From the IMG/VR virus record IMGVR_UViG_3300037882_001668, positions 1 through 34,849 of that record: DNA of 34,849 nt. One strand, 5' to 3'. The notes below the pieces were generated by a model. The model was not told the DNA's origin. It saw only the letters and a program-made list of their open reading frames with translations, and did no database searches. The DNA is from a virus. A program made the position numbers and the translations under genes. Shown here piece after piece: positions 4,702-34,849 of this stretch (its first letter is position 1; the number at the start of each line of letters is the position of its first letter).

Positions 4702-4781
4702 CTGACAAAATAGAAACATATATTTTTTTATTTTTTTCAACGGTTACATGTACTTTATTAATTTTAGATAGATTTGTATAG
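4698..4781 (+). CDS. 27-residue single-helix membrane peptide, paralogue of 237-323
   Basis: This peptide starts in an ATGA overlap with the preceding gene and ends nine bases before the ERF gene. It shares MTDKIETYIF with the minus-strand peptide at 237-323, differs through a conserved-type hydrophobic helix, and ends LDRFV. The pairwise match between two strands and two operons is far too strong for chance. It is expected in the inner membrane. Roles such as superinfection exclusion or modulation of a membrane-bound host protein are possible but untested. Confidence 0.75.
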   Translation: MTDKIETYIFLFFSTVTCTLLILDRFV

Positions 4782-4790
4782 AGAGGAAAC

Positions 4791-5369
4791 ATGAATATTT
4801 TCCAACGCATTAATTTAGTTATGCGAGATGCTGAGTACATAAAAAAGGGATCGGCGGGTCAGGGGACAGGTGTTTTGTACGATGAGGTTATAGCAATGCT
4901 GCGAGGTTTGCTGATAAAAAACGGCATCGTTTTAACTGTCGATATTTTAGCAGACAATTCTAGATCCGTTGGAGAGAAAAAAAATTATGTATACGAGGGG
5001 TATTATAAAATATCGTATATTAATATCGAGAAACCAGACGACAGATTAGAGTCGTTTGTTACAGCGCACGCGATGGACTCTGGAGACAAGGCCCCTGGAA
5101 AAGCAATTACATACGCGACAAAAATTAGTATTCTAAAAGTTTTTGCGCTAGAGACCGGCGTGAATGATGAATCTCGCAGTTATGAATCTAGTTTGCCAGA
5201 AATTATTACTGAGTCTGAAGCTGAAAATTTAAAAAAATTAATTGAGGAAGCGGGGGCTGATTTAAAATTATTTTGTAAAAACTTCGGATGCTCATCACCT
5301 GATTTGTTGCCGAAAAAATCATTGATACGAGCGCGCGCAATGTTAAACGCAAAAAAGGGGCAAAAATAA
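4791..5369 (+). CDS. erf: ERF-family single-strand annealing protein
   Basis: The 192-residue product matches the ERF superfamily. It has an N-terminal region of alternating helix and strand and the typical segment GDKAPGKAITYATK near residues 97-110, followed by KISILKVFALETG. A helical C-terminal region probably mediates partner contacts. ERF proteins anneal complementary single strands during phage recombination and repair. The next gene is a YqaJ-type exonuclease and SSB lies just beyond, a standard recombination set. AGAGG precedes the ATG. The stop overlaps the next start as TAATG. Confidence 0.9.
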   Translation: MNIFQRINLVMRDAEYIKKGSAGQGTGVLYDEVIAMLRGLLIKNGIVLTVDILADNSRSVGEKKNYVYEGYYKISYINIEKPDDRLESFVTAHAMDSGDKAPGKAITYATKISILKVFALETGVNDESRSYESSLPEIITESEAENLKKLIEEAGADLKLFCKNFGCSSPDLLPKKSLIRARAMLNAKKGQK

Positions 5370-6364: not shown

Positions 6365-6742
6365 ATGTTTACACAATTAGTAAGGATTGGAAGAGATGCA
6401 GAATTACGCACAACCCAAAACGGCGAGAGCGTTTGTTCTCTAGCGTGCGCGTACGATATAGGGTTTGGAGATCGGAAAGAAACTGTTTGGATTAGTGGGG
6501 CGCTGTGGGGCAAACGTGCGGAATCATTAGTGCATTATTTAAAAAAAGGAATTCAGGCTATGATCGTTTTTGACGATGTTAAGCCGGAAATTTACAACGA
6601 AAAAGCGAGCTTAAAGGGCCGCATAGTTGAAATAAAATTGTGCGGCAAAAAGCCGGAGCAATCATCCCAAGCGCCGATCAAGCCGCGACCAGCACCAGTG
6701 CAACAACAAGCAACTGATTTTGACGATGATATACCGTTTTAA
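6365..6742 (+). CDS. ssb: Single-stranded DNA-binding protein
   Basis: The product has 125 residues. Residues 1-95 resemble an OB fold, with the usual opening LVRIGRDAELRTTQNGESVC and a later VEIKLCG. A Pro/Gln-rich linker leads to the acidic tip DFDDDIPF, the standard SSB tail that recruits partner proteins. It completes an ERF-exonuclease-SSB recombination module. It is shorter than bacterial SSBs, as is common in phages. The start is six bases past the previous stop. Confidence 0.9.
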   Translation: MFTQLVRIGRDAELRTTQNGESVCSLACAYDIGFGDRKETVWISGALWGKRAESLVHYLKKGIQAMIVFDDVKPEIYNEKASLKGRIVEIKLCGKKPEQSSQAPIKPRPAPVQQQATDFDDDIPF

Positions 6743-6815
6743 CGATCCCGCTTAAGCGGCAGTTATGTCGCACACGCACTGTATGAATTAACAGTAAAAA
6801 TAGTTTAAATAGTTG

Positions 6816-6910
6816 TTGCGTTACGTGTAATGTATTGCTATAGTTACATCACTGAAGCGATTGGCGCGACAGAAAAACAAATGGTGATGAAAATGCAACT
6901 ATCAAACAAA
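6816..6910 (+). promoter_or_regulatory. 95-base conserved leader with extended -10 promoter (cassette copy A)
   Basis: These 95 bases are identical to the reverse complement of 23667-23761, while the downstream coding halves have diverged. They contain TTGCGT (6816-6821), a 17-base spacer and TGCTATAGT, an extended -10 with TATAGT at 6839-6844. Exact conservation of a non-coding leader suggests a functional promoter and perhaps a 5' UTR element. It also argues against using ATG 6830 as the start, because that lies upstream of the -10 box. Confidence 0.65.
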
Positions 6911-7114
6911 AAAGCTTTAAAAGAAATAAAAGCAGCAGCGGCAGCGGCAGGCTTAACATTCTCACGGATGAAGAGCGTTGGATCGATTAACGGATCCCCA
7001 GCGTACAAATTTTATCCTCGTGGCGGGGGGTCAGCGGTAATTAGTAACTGTACTATAAGCAGTGCGTATACGCTTGTATGCGCAGGCGATTTAGATAAGT
7101 TTAAAAATGAGTAA
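6881..7114 (+). CDS. Duplicated cassette gene 1, copy A (small conserved phage protein)
   Basis: The frame is open from ATG 6830, but that lies upstream of a promoter -10 box. ATG 6881, 6887 or 6893 (after GGTGAT) is therefore more likely. The product of about 77 residues is strongly basic at the start (MKMQLSNKKALKEIK). It then has INGSPAYKFYPRGGG, followed by SNCTISSAY and LDKFKNE. A paralogue is encoded at 23463-23696, with most substitutions in the helix around residue 20. Short phage proteins with an I-N-G-x-x-A-Y-K-F...S-N-C-T pattern are known to me only as uncharacterised. It overlaps gene 2 of the cassette. Confidence 0.8.
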   Translation: MVMKMQLSNKKALKEIKAAAAAAGLTFSRMKSVGSINGSPAYKFYPRGGGSAVISNCTISSAYTLVCAGDLDKFKNE

Positions 7115-7280
7115 TGATAAGGGCGCGAAAGCGCCCAAGTCTAACGCTGATAGGCAGGCCGCGTATCGAGCGAGGAAAGCCCAAAACGGGCTTATTGAGG
7201 TTCGAGGGATATTTTCGACTGCAGAAAATGCTGAGAAAATTCGGCTCTATGCACAGAAATTGAGCGACCGGGCTGGCTAG
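7107..7280 (+). CDS. Duplicated cassette gene 2, copy A (small basic protein)
   Basis: The 57-residue product starts MSNDKGAKAPKSNADRQAAY and overlaps gene 1 by eight bases. It continues RARKAQNG, then EVRGIF and a helix ending IRLYAQKLSDRAG. It resembles short proteins with a DRQ-x-x-Y-R-x-R...E-V-R pattern that may be ribbon-helix-helix-like DNA binders. A paralogue with the same first ten residues lies at 23300-23470. Just after the start codon the mRNA can form GGGCGC-GAAA-GCGCCC (7121-7136), also kept in the second copy. The last codons run into a repeated hairpin (7266-7301). Confidence 0.8.
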   Translation: MSNDKGAKAPKSNADRQAAYRARKAQNGLIEVRGIFSTAENAEKIRLYAQKLSDRAG

Positions 7281-7301
7281 ATGCCAGTCATTACCCGATT
7301 A
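7266..7301 (+). repeat. 36-base nested hairpin repeat, copy 1
   Basis: Identical to 8011-8046. It contains CGGG (7269-7272) pairing with CCCG (7294-7297), enclosing CTGGC-TAGAT-GCCAG (7273-7287). It lies 18 bases before the ATG of the ParB-like gene. As DNA it is a symmetric operator-like site. As RNA it is a stem-loop at the edge of the ribosome-binding region. Confidence 0.8.
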
Positions 7302-7319
7302 TAAGCCGAGGGTATTAAA

Positions 7320-7739
7320 ATGAATACCCAACAATTGAAAATTAACCCCACGGGAGAAGGTATGGCAGCAAAGAAAAAAAATGATTCAAGAATTCATATT
7401 CGCCAGCGGGAGTCAATGCAAGGGCAAATGGCTAGGCTGGGCAAGAATTGTTGGGCTGTCTCTAGGCTGGTCATGCTCTCAAAGGATTTACCCACTATGG
7501 ATGTTCCGTTGAAGCATTTAAACGTCTACAACACTTACGATAATTTAACCCTGCGGGAGATGGTGTCTCATATGAGAGCTGTGAATGCCAGTGATCTCAA
7601 GTACCCCATTATTTTGGATGAGGATGGCGAGATTATGGATGGCAGACATCGCATTATGAAAGCCATGCTTGAGGGTAAAAAAACGATTAAGGCTGTGCGG
7701 TTTGATGAGAATCCATCTCCTTGTAGCCGAGACGAATAA
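7320..7739 (+). CDS. ParB/Srx-like domain protein
   Basis: The 139-residue product contains IILDEDGEIMDGRHRIMKAM near residues 97-116, the signature of the ParB N-terminal/sulfiredoxin-like fold. In phages this fold often occurs in small regulatory or nucleotide-handling proteins. The N-terminus is basic (AAKKKNDSRIHIRQRE). GAGGG precedes ATG 7320, but ATG 7362 after GGGAGAAGG is equally good in the same frame. The gene follows the first copy of the 36-base hairpin. There is no HTH domain and no parA or parS, so plasmid partition is unlikely. Confidence 0.7.
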   Translation: MNTQQLKINPTGEGMAAKKKNDSRIHIRQRESMQGQMARLGKNCWAVSRLVMLSKDLPTMDVPLKHLNVYNTYDNLTLREMVSHMRAVNASDLKYPIILDEDGEIMDGRHRIMKAMLEGKKTIKAVRFDENPSPCSRDE

Positions 7740-7785
7740 CGACCTGTAATTGAAAATTAACTCTATCAATATGCGGATTTTTAAA

Positions 7786-8004
7786 ATGAATACGATTGAT
7801 TTTTGTTTTTGGTTGCAGGGATATTTTGAAATTAGTGGGAATACTGAAATCACGAAAGAGCAAGCGAATGTCATCAAAGATCATTTGAGTCTTGTTTTTA
7901 AGCATGAGATTGACCCGCTTCGGGAAAAGCAGACTACTACACCTGCCATCACACTTACCGCAGCGCACTCACCTTTAAATAATGATGCGCTAGTGCGATG
8001 CTAG
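7786..8004 (+). CDS. Small conserved phage protein (FCFWLQGYFE type)
   Basis: I start at ATG 7786 (MNTIDFCFWLQGYFEISG). The frame is open from a TTG at 7750, but that adds a low-complexity leader. The 72-residue protein has the pattern FCxWLQGxFE...LTxEQxxxIxxHLxLVF seen in many short phage proteins of unknown function. Its C-terminus is a Thr/Ala-rich tail. It sits between the two exact copies of the 36-base hairpin repeat. The sequence AATTGAAAATTAAC shortly before this start also occurs in the first codons of the previous gene. Confidence 0.75.
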   Translation: MNTIDFCFWLQGYFEISGNTEITKEQANVIKDHLSLVFKHEIDPLREKQTTTPAITLTAAHSPLNNDALVRC

Positions 8005-8010
8005 TAACAA

Positions 8011-8046
8011 GACCGGGCTGGCTAGATGCCAGTCATTACCCGATTA
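8011..8046 (+). repeat. 36-base nested hairpin repeat, copy 2
   Basis: Exact copy of 7266-7301, entirely non-coding here. It lies 28 bases before the ATG of the zinc-knuckle/HTH gene. The inner arms CTGGC/GCCAG are separated by five bases, a usual geometry for a dimeric HTH operator. A degraded third copy is seen at about 8326-8352, at the end of that gene and just before the methyltransferase start. Confidence 0.8.
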
Positions 8047-8074
8047 GCCGCACAGATTATTTTGGAGAAATACG

Positions 8075-8353
8075 ATGGATAGGCAGTGCAGCTCATGCGG
8101 TGGGTTTTGCAAAAAAAGCCGATGCGAAATAATAACGCTAAAGCCAATAACAGGCTCTAACATTAAGCGAATAAGAGAGGCTCGCAAAATGAGCGCGATA
8201 GAACTCGCTCGCGCTGCAAGTGTTCCAAAAAACACGCTTTCAGAGCTAGAAAATAGTACTCAAAACCCGTCTGTGTGGACTATGTACAAAATAGCAAAGG
8301 CTTTGAATTGCAGCATTGAGGAATTGCTAAGATACCAGTCATTACCAGATTGA
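8075..8353 (+). CDS. Xre-family HTH regulator with N-terminal Cys knuckle
   Basis: GGAG seven bases before ATG 8075 supports the long start. Residues 5-17 hold CSSCGGFCKKSRC, a likely zinc knuckle. Residues 29-88 are a standard HTH_3 domain: IKRIREARKMSAIELARAAS, then VPKNTLSELENSTQNPS, then KIAKALNCSIEELL. It probably dimerises and binds a palindromic operator. The 36-base hairpin just upstream is the obvious candidate for autoregulation. Such small repressors occur in both temperate and virulent phages, and no integrase is present. Confidence 0.85.
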   Translation: MDRQCSSCGGFCKKSRCEIITLKPITGSNIKRIREARKMSAIELARAASVPKNTLSELENSTQNPSVWTMYKIAKALNCSIEELLRYQSLPD

Positions 8354-23002: not shown

Positions 23003-23030
23003 AAAAAAAATCGCCCCGCTTAAAGGGCGC
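23003..23030 (-). terminator. Intrinsic terminator inside the head operon
   Basis: On the minus strand a CGCCC/GGGCG stem with an eight-base loop is followed by A and eight T residues. It lies between the inserted cassette with the IS30 remnant and the next head gene. This is a convincing Rho-independent terminator in an operon that should be read through, so late antitermination or a downstream promoter is implied. Confidence 0.7.
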
Positions 23031-23039
23031 GGATTTCAG

Positions 23040-23279
23040 TCGCCAGTGCGACACATTGAATTTTGACGGCCAGTGGGCGAAGCTCACGGTCGACTAAAAC
23101 CCAATGTGAGCTCACAATGCCAAAGACATACACCCGACTGACCAAGACGAACGATACCAGATTTATGAGGGCGTGACAGAACAACGATCACATCGTGAAA
23201 TAGCCACTTTGATCAATAAGCATCACAGTACGGTTTCCAACGAGGTTAAACGTAATACCGGGCTGCGGGGCTATAGTGT
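23040..23279 (+). mobile_element. IS30-family insertion sequence remnant (left end)
   Basis: The segment holds an end-like sequence (CCAGTGCGACACATTGAATT at 23043-23062), whose complement contains the CAATGTGTCGCACTGG type of end I associate with IS30-like elements. The start of a transposase gene follows. The element stops abruptly near 23279, where cassette copy B begins. Only the 5' part remains and no right end is seen nearby. Confidence 0.55.
23117..23279 (+). pseudogene. Truncated IS30-type transposase N-terminus
   Basis: ATG 23117 reads MPKTYTRLTK. From 23146 the reading continues one frame over (DERYQIYEGVTEQRSHREIA), which implies a single-base deletion. Then come TLINKHHSTVSNEVKRNTG and LRGY, the classic N-terminal HTH of IS30 transposases. 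The expected RPKQA continuation is absent because the sequence switches to cassette DNA. The catalytic DDE domain is missing, so the gene is dead. It runs against the head operon. Confidence 0.75.
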
Positions 23280-23299: not shown

Positions 23300-23470
23300 T
23301 TAGTGGCGTAACTGTAATTCCCTTGCGTATCGCCGGATTTTCGCGGCGTTTTCCTGCGTTGCAAATATGCCGCGCACTTCCTGCAATTTTTCAGCTGCCT
23401 TTTTTGCCCTAAATGCAGCTTGCCGCTCTGCATTAGATCGGGGCGCTTTCGCGCCCTTATCATTACTCAT
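23300..23470 (-). CDS. Duplicated cassette gene 2, copy B (small basic protein)
   Basis: The 56-residue product begins MSNDKGAKAPRSNAERQAAF, continues RAKKAAEK, then LQEVRGIFATQENAAKIRRYARE. It is clearly paralogous to the protein at 7107-7280, about two thirds identical by eye. It overlaps copy B of gene 1 in the same way, and the GGGCGC-GAAA-GCGCCC hairpin just after the start is unchanged (23441-23456). The intact frame despite divergence suggests both copies are under selection. It may be a DNA-binding protein of ribbon-helix-helix type, but that is uncertain. Confidence 0.8.
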   Translation of the reverse strand: MSNDKGAKAPRSNAERQAAFRAKKAAEKLQEVRGIFATQENAAKIRRYARELQLRH

Positions 23471-23696
23471 TTTTAAACTTATCTAAATCGCCTGCATACA
23501 CAAGCGCGTATGCACTTCCAAGGGTGCAGTTACTAATTACTGCATCGCCGCCTCCGCGTGGGTAAAACTTATAAGCTGGCGATCCGTTAATCATTCCAAC
23601 TGTTGTCATTCTCCCAAAAGTTAAGCCAACTTTTTTTGCTGCTGCTTTTATTTCTGTTAAAGCTTCTTTGTTTGATAGTTGCATTTTCATCACCAT
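23463..23696 (-). CDS. Duplicated cassette gene 1, copy B (small conserved phage protein)
   Basis: This is the paralogue of 6881-7114, placed between the portal gene and the IS30 remnant. It keeps INGSPAYKFYPRGGG and the LDKFKNE ending but differs elsewhere (KKVGLTFGRMTTVGM). The frame is open from 23765, but the conserved promoter lies in that part, so ATG 23696 or a start up to 12 bases later is preferred. A gene with its own promoter inside the late structural operon fits a moron. Function unknown. Confidence 0.8.
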   Translation of the reverse strand: MVMKMQLSNKEALTEIKAAAKKVGLTFGRMTTVGMINGSPAYKFYPRGGGDAVISNCTLGSAYALVYAGDLDKFKNE

Positions 23697-23761
23697 TTGT
23701 TTTTCTGTCGCGCCAATCGCTTCAGTGATGTAACTATAGCAATACATTACACGTAACGCAA
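23667..23761 (-). promoter_or_regulatory. 95-base conserved leader with extended -10 promoter (cassette copy B)
   Basis: Reverse-complement identity to 6816-6910 covers all 95 bases. The -35 TTGCGT is at 23761-23756 and the extended -10 TGC-TATAGT ends at 23733, spacer 17. Upstream sequences of the two copies are unrelated, so this leader marks the cassette boundary. Confidence 0.65.
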
Positions 23762-23855
23762 GCACTTTAATGAAATAAATGTAAATAATTTACTCTGCAG
23801 CAAAACATAACAAGTAGCGTCAAAATGAAGCTGTTTAAATATCGGTTTTTAACTC

Positions 23856-34750: not shown

Positions 34751-34849
34751 ATAGATTTCAAACGTCATGTTGTTTTGTGGTAACGATCTCGACTGATTAT
34801 TTTCAATCGTTATCACACTCGGGAAAATGATAAAGTTCGGGTTTTGCAG
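34751..34849. repeat. Terminal direct repeat, right copy (assembly overlap)
   Basis: Identical to bases 1-99. The copy carries the NinB-like coding sequence just upstream of the in-frame TAA. Removing it gives the 34,750-base circle. Confidence 0.9.

Follow-up and report, generated by a model that had tools for sequence, protein, structure and literature searches.

A putative portable promoter-hairpin leader before many small phage genes, and the gene pair that stands behind it twice in one 34.8-kb phage

Two copies of a small-gene cassette

The window analysed here, the whole of a 34,849-nt IMG/VR virus record, contains two copies of a small cassette, each made up of a promoter-like sequence, gene A and a gene B that overlaps the end of gene A (Table 1). 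As a sequence-only reading had claimed, the copies lie on opposite strands: they align with gaps over 6805-7261 (+) and 23770-23316 (−), and the inverted repeat pair I1 (6811-7180 against 23397-23766) forms a gap-free core of 370 nt that is 82% complementary, the four remaining inverted pairs in the window measuring 25-79 nt each. That reading also correctly saw two overlapping ORFs in each copy, a promoter core and leader that are identical in both, and the same internal hairpin (GGGCGC-GAAA-GCGCCC). Copy 1 was rightly placed in the early arm, where it follows an SSB-like gene on the early strand, and copy 2 beside the portal gene, where it adjoins a gene matching SU10_portal (Pfam) on the late strand. 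Copy 2 had further been given a promoter in front and a terminator beyond. Its own promoter-like leader is present, but the terminator is only suggestive, because the scan of the region beyond copy 2 returned 2 sites against 1.4 expected and the folding z score of 23029-23012 is −0.15. The spot that copy 2 occupies has taken foreign DNA; the transposase remnant that abuts it is presumably of IS30 type, and the region of the remnant had no match among plasmids. The ends of the window are identical over 99 nt (1-99 and 34751-34849), perhaps an overlap that the assembler left from a circular map and not a repeat of biological origin.

Table 1. Features of the two cassette copies and of the surroundings of copy 2
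Feature	Coordinates	Strand	Description
Copy 1 promoter core	6816..6844	+	-35-like TTGCGT 6816-6821; 17 nt with TTACgtGTAA inverted repeat; -10 TATAGT 6839-6844
Copy 1 leader	6845..6892	+	TACATC conserved; inferred transcript start 6851; hairpin CTGAAGC..GCGACAG 6852-6872; A-rich stretch; GGTGAT 6883-6888, ribosome-site-like
Gene A, copy 1	6893..7114	+	73 aa; start by comparison with L076
GAAA-loop hairpin, copy 1	7121..7136	+	6 bp; just past gene A stop, within first gene B codons
Gene B, copy 1	7107..7280	+	57 aa
Copy 2 promoter core	23733..23761	-	identical to copy 1
Copy 2 leader	23685..23732	-	5' hairpin 23725-23705; identical to copy 1
Gene A, copy 2	23463..23684	-	73 aa; 81% identical to copy 1
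GAAA-loop hairpin, copy 2	23441..23456	-	same letters as copy 1
Gene B, copy 2	23300..23470	-	56 aa; 71% identical to copy 1
Transposase N-terminal remnant	23117..23275	+	Pfam HTH_38 E 9e-9; PHROG transposase E 6e-5; frameshifted, truncated; abuts copy 2 end
Possible terminator beyond copy 2	23012..23029	-	hairpin and T run

The promoter core starts exactly where a 95-nt block identical between the copies starts. Its −35 element matches the consensus at three of six positions and its −10 element at five of six, with a TG one base upstream. A consensus promoter scan of the window did not list the TTGCGT-17-TATAGT promoter, which we nonetheless judge to be real because of its conservation; similar arrangements are found in L085, L092, L083 and L084. 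Transcript starts were placed from the −10 position only, 7 nt downstream of it (at 23726 in copy 2), and the leader hairpin would begin one nucleotide after this start. The ORF list opens gene A of copy 1 at an ATG (6830) inside the promoter-like sequence. The starts given in Table 1 are the most likely ones, because the related protein of L076 begins at the position matching 6893 and because of the start spacing in similar leaders: in those most like the window's (L083, L084, L087 and L085), the start codon lies 45-46 nt after the beginning of CATCACTG.

Compared between the copies, protein A is 85% identical over 94 aa (in the ORF-list translations) and protein B over 55 aa to the extent given in Table 1. 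At the DNA level the identity comes in blocks and is not uniform. Two stretches are the longest without a mismatch, one of 95 nt (6816-6910, between the −35 and codon 6) and one of 55 nt (7082-7136, at the gene A/B junction); inside these two blocks none of 26 third positions differs, against 62 of 102 elsewhere, a contrast with P of about 3e-11 at equal rates, for blocks that were picked after their identity had been seen. NG86 estimates are dN 0.13 and dS 1.07 for gene A, dN 0.18 and dS 2.2 for its inner part, and dN 0.26 for gene B, for which dS is not computable; both pairs are conserved at the protein level. The earlier description of the coding parts as diverged while staying open holds insofar as both gene pairs are intact with low dN/dS, but the identity is blocky and two blocks are unchanged. 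Its further step, from intact paralogues to selection for two products or two times of expression, finds no support in that form, although the proteins are conserved relative to silent sites. We read the copies as mosaics, which look old and protein-conserving yet homogenised recently in two blocks. The silent sites have diverged by more than a simple, recent duplication would allow, while two blocks are identical, a combination that fits recombination or gene conversion between the copies, or the joining of long-separated versions. Composition does not date the arrival of the copies, because their GC (0.47 and 0.45) is close to that of the genome (0.44).

The leader in other phage contigs

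What the sequence-only reading overlooked is that the front part common to both copies is a leader standing before other genes in many phages. A 16-mer, TATAGTTACATCACTG, that places no constraint on the 3′ side of the hairpin matched 46 IMG/VR stretches, which were divided by eye into 28 leaders and 18 chance sites. In all 28 leaders an ATG lies 39-66 nt downstream, usually after a short hairpin, and opens an ORF (truncated at the contig end in L114); by a script rule 2 of the 18 set-aside sites (L112 and L116) have an ATG as well, the ATG having also been used in the judging. A −35 element matching at least four of six positions precedes 18 of the 28 leaders and 3 of the 18 set-aside sites, the other 10 leaders matching at only two or three, and a stem of at least 4 bp from the first C is found in 21 of 28 against 4 of 18. 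The set-aside sites tend to lie in longer open frames, of 138 to 1190 codons against 15 to 177 at leaders, with overlapping ranges. The genes behind the 28 leaders differ, with many different small ORFs among them; the leaders together with the window and L083 form 14 clusters by DNA and 5 by tblastx of the leader stretches.

The hairpin was counted after near-identical leaders had been reduced to one, which left 27 distinct leaders (eight of them from looser motifs), or 19 when only exact 16-mer matches were taken. A stem of at least 4 bp is present in 22 of the 27 (mean 7.2 and maximum 14 in 1000 shuffles) and in 15 of the 19 (mean 4.8 and maximum 10 in 500 shuffles), the 5′ arm of the stem, CTG, being prescribed by the exact searches. 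For the window, L088 and L092b the script scored 4 bp that come from a pairing other than the proposed CTG/CAG stem, and leaving these three out brings the count to 19 of 27. Stem letters vary on both sides (CTGC/GCAG, CAGTC/GACTG, CTGAC/GTCAG), with two-sided changes in L102b and L115c; the hairpin is absent in L113 and weak in L100. The inverted repeat before the −10, an operator-like palindrome, is a secondary feature only: strong in L085, L083, L117, L109 and L092, it fails to reach significance in the window (shuffle fractions 0.11 and 0.18), and it was scored in 9 of 22 cases, a set that counts the window twice and includes L076, against a mean of 2.3 and a maximum of 7 in 300 shuffles.

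The pattern CATCACTGAAGCN{3,12}GCGACAG retrieved 10 stretches, judged as 6 good, 1 undecided and 3 chance, and the 25-mer GTAATGTATTGCTATAGTTACATCA occurs in no viral contig. L086, L089 and L090 were rejected as leaders, being chance matches to the eye. Searches of named phages listed 6 and 19 records, all weak, and a search of plasmids listed 6, weak only; Aeromonas phage 4L372D, Enterobacter phage phiEap-2, Vibrio phage vB_VnaS-AQKL99 and Salmonella phage FSL SP-031 were set aside as members, the full motif being absent from them. The phages phiEap-2 (L140, at 1543) and FSL SP-031 (L142, at 841) have a stretch in common, TATAGTTC(A/T)CATCACCAACTGATACGGAG, once per record. The undecided L091 (IMG/VR 2585427641_000003) has at 4779-4803 (−) a leader-like CATCACTGAAGC..GCGACAG without TATAGT, before a gene that by eye is TerB-like.

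With up to two mismatches allowed, at least two leader sites per record are found in 6 of 27 leader records and in 2 of 11 coding-hit records, most records being fragments, and a reversed-pattern control gave 0 of 41. The 27 were drawn from 30 leader records, L125, L134 and L135 being left out as near-duplicates; among the six with repeats, L102 and L115 are near relatives, and the second site of L105 was counted from the match alone. The number of sites per record does not by itself tell leaders from chance sites; context makes the case. In L102/L115, L111, L119 and L120 the additional copies are likewise accompanied by a hairpin and an ATG, and contigs hold one to three copies, three being reached in L119 and L115 by a looser reading.

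Pairs of contigs show what happens at the borders of the leader. L109 and L127 are 100% identical over 104 nt through the hairpin (the left side being cut by the stretch end), then carry different genes and then return to homology at 94%, an alignment that shows the leader at what would be the left edge of a gene replacement. One-sidedly, L110 and L119 agree at 93% along 860 nt as far as the start codon, beyond which they carry different genes. The two copies in the window appear to present a similar swap picture within one genome.

Products and relatives of the gene pair

Gene A ends in stop codons, and the GAAA-loop hairpin that lies directly 3′ of it also encodes the start of gene B. This junction hairpin folds (z −2.3 in copy 1) and is kept with other letters in L082 and L092 and in weaker form in L080; we read it as a putative 3′ protective or coupling element. 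An AlphaFold model of protein A from copy 2 (pLDDT 85) has the order helix, strands, helix, and the product of gene A is modelled as a small alpha/beta protein. The model of protein B from copy 2 (pLDDT 87, pTM 0.53, six-row alignment) has a helix at 13-26, strands at 30-32 and 35-37, and a helix at 39-55; a ribbon-helix-helix regulator was rejected for gene B, because that fold needs a strand followed by two helices. The product of gene B, of about 57 aa and basic by its sequence, is possibly nucleic-acid binding, and we would favour both A and B as small host-takeover or regulatory proteins.

Database searches returned little for either product. Structure searches with the A and B models found no neighbour at E 0.001, PDB sequence searches gave best matches of only E 0.044 and 0.24, and Pfam searches returned no family naming a function. 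A BFVD fold search for A had a best E of 5.6e-3, naming no function; PHROGs gave weak matches only, the best being phrog_9651 (E 0.0011, for B of copy 2), which matched in none of 14 control genomes; and PADLOC had no match for any of the four A and B proteins up to E 0.1. The model of gene A has a faint fold likeness to T7 Gp1.2, a dGTPase inhibitor, that is not significant (E 0.12 and 0.65, TM 0.43-0.50). The last codons of gene B in copy 1 come from a second repeat of 51 nt (86%; 7266-7316 and 8011-8061) with a hairpin, GGCTGGC-TAGAT-GCCAGTC; its 20-nt core, with up to four mismatches, occurs in no examined locus except window-derived ones.

Relatives of the two genes were found apart from each other. 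In searches of viral contigs, the only relative of gene A outside the window is in L076, 63% identical to copy 1 and 75% to copy 2, behind a promoter-like sequence and before a gene that looks HTH-like by eye; gene B is absent from that record. Named phages, plasmids and genome contigs gave no convincing match for gene A, and named phages none for gene B. A survey of 50 kin records, 49 found by terminase and L076 found by gene A itself, returned for gene A L076 and, weakly, L047 (25 residues, E 0.0066, judged chance); gene B was found in 0 of 50, a set that holds no positive control for it. Relatives of gene B are present in L080/L081 and L082, and also in L092 and L085, and unexpectedly a leader like that of the window was found upstream of them. 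In L080/L081, L082 and L092, and at the leader loci L084/L087 and L083, the relative of gene B follows a different first gene behind the leader, and in L085 a B-like gene stands directly behind it, with no first gene; the combination of leader and gene B relative is found in four DNA clusters besides the window's. Some of the leader stretches come from distant kin of the window's phage, at 40% in the portal (L092) and 34-40% in terL (L083, L084, L087, L114 and L127).

A proposed portable expression module and its alternatives

We posit that a portable phage expression module underlies each copy and makes it a transcription unit complete in itself; in this module, a sigma70-type promoter ending in TATAGT would be followed by TACATC up to the transcription start, a small hairpin, a ribosome site and an ATG. 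The promoter would work with host RNA polymerase, and the 5′-terminal hairpin would shield the mRNA from 5′-end-dependent decay by the RppH/RNase E route, which is known from leaders of the ompA kind. The repeated leader and the hairpin at the gene A/B junction could (i) offer short homology for recombination, by which genes would be swapped behind the leader, and (ii) allow the copies in the window to be homogenised at two blocks while the rest stays diverged, with gene A (73 aa) and gene B (about 57 aa) as the cargo. By sequence, the same leader is seen before many small ORFs, recurs within some contigs and mostly keeps its hairpin though the stem letters change. We regard it as probable that the window holds such a portable sigma70-type promoter with a 5′-terminal mRNA hairpin, PeSL-like in its working, and that an uncharacterised gene pair is carried by it twice. 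Copy 2 has a moron-like position in the late region; a related phage is its probable source, by acquisition or exchange, in preference to a simple duplication of recent date. A broader proposal is put forward tentatively, with rather less confidence: that non-T4 tailed phages contain widespread, previously undescribed mobile expression cassettes, in which a promoter with a protective hairpin serves as a recombination handle and small genes, or pairs such as A/B, are traded behind a constant, ready-to-run leader, even into a late structural operon. Some text searches of the literature found no paper, and another listed one on a Rhodococcus phage.

Plain duplication within this phage, with the paralogues kept for two products or two times of expression and the identical blocks as their most constrained parts, would suit the open reading frames and low dN/dS of both pairs, as well as the location of one copy on the early and the other on the late strand, each oriented to match. 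The identical blocks nevertheless contain positions that vary between phages (at the gene B start in L082 and in the leader loop of L084 and L083), so that constraint alone does not readily explain 0 of 26 changes, and protein A of copy 2 is nearer to its L076 relative than copy 1 is; we consider this origin unlikely. Far harder to believe is that copy 2 is an assembly chimera. The record is from IMG/VR and an IS remnant abuts copy 2, but the longest exact block common to the copies, 95 nt, falls just under the 99-nt terminal repeat (taken as the assembler overlap), 18% of sites are different between the copies, and copy 2 has an intergenic position on the late strand.

Two further readings concern function. 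If the gene pair were a toxin-antitoxin-like or counter-defence module kept in two copies, one could make sense of two tiny overlapping genes with their own promoter in a moron-like position, of a basic gene B product modelled as helix-strand-strand-helix, and of the faint fold lead from A to the T7 dGTPase inhibitor (E 0.12). The PADLOC, structure and PDB searches described above gave it no match, however, and A and B do not form a fixed cognate pair, gene B occurring with other first genes or alone and gene A without gene B in L076, which makes such a module distinctly unlikely in our judgement. The leader has also been weighed as a ligand- or protein-responsive RNA switch, in which CAUCAC would pair with GGUGAU and hide the ribosome site. 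The window leader can fold in this way (−9.1 kcal/mol, z −1.7), and the pairing recurs in folds of L084, L083 and L124; yet most of CAUCAC would be untranscribed if the transcript starts at 6851, the GGUGAU partner is missing from L088, L092, L117 and the CTGC/GCAG group, and Rfam gave no match to 6700-8200 of the window up to E 10 or, at gathering scores, to the window, L080, L081 and L082. After the Rfam test the riboswitch reading was dropped as first choice, and we now hold it to be quite improbable.

One promoter-leader before many different small genes points to an expression module that phages could use ready-made when trading such genes. Phage early regions are rich in tiny uncharacterised genes that come and go, and a recognisable leader would be a handle by which to find them systematically; it predicts that such genes are expressed as soon as they arrive, and it proposes a mechanism, open to testing, by which they would be exchanged outside the T4 group. 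What was described as a duplicated cassette becomes a possible case of homogenisation limited to regulatory blocks.

Elements of comparable design have been described elsewhere. In haloarchaeal virus HGTV-1, a TATA-like region with an inverted repeat precedes many left-arm ORFs and has been proposed to act in regulation and shuffling (PMC3950731); likened by description, both this element and the leader place a promoter-like sequence and an inverted repeat before ORFs, the HGTV-1 promoter being archaeal. The 13-bp SAS repeat of Cluster K mycobacteriophages occurs in 11-19 copies per genome, is tied to the start codons of a subset of genes and, for about half of the copies, is accompanied by inverted repeats (SAS/ESAS; PMC3203893). 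The leader resembles it as a repeated motif near start codons and differs in that its conserved part is a promoter with a 5′ hairpin. Stem-loops that stabilise mRNA from its 5′ terminus are described for ompA and papA (PMC3997798, PMC7509114), and the leader hairpin would be alike in lying at an mRNA 5′ end, which in the window is placed 7 nt after the −10.

The closest parallel is with the PeSL (promoter early stem-loop) elements, described for T4-type phages as short, repeated, intergenic units of an early promoter and a stem-loop that are thought to mediate gene shuffling (PMC4503421). Most of the 28 leaders likewise appear to combine an early-type promoter and a stem-loop within one intergenic unit, although not all do, L113 being without the hairpin and 10 of 28 having a poor −35. 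PeSLs are reportedly the subject of Arbiol et al. 2010 and of Comeau et al. 2014, whose title is said to call them promoter-terminator motifs, with the stem-loop as terminator of the gene before, whereas the stem-loop of the leader lies downstream of the −10, at the presumed mRNA 5′ end. PeSLs come in many copies per genome, in variable regions, and the leader in one to three per contig. The carriers differ as well: PeSLs belong to T4-like myoviruses, and the window is a 34.8-kb phage with an SU10-type portal, a comparison made for the window only; in a 139-kb Aeromonas phage there is one leader-type site, a weak one. In its working, the leader is best read as resembling a mobile regulatory cassette of the PeSL type whose stem-loop would lie at the mRNA 5′ end, a likeness of function rather than a claim of membership. 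As points of exchange, the two-sided swap of L109/L127 and the one-sided swap of L110/L119 would be the counterparts of PeSL exchange points. The most PeSL-like arrangement among the leader loci is in L092 (445-1045), where two leaders stand in series, a GAAA-loop hairpin lies between the stop codon of the first gene and the second leader, and a relative of gene B follows.
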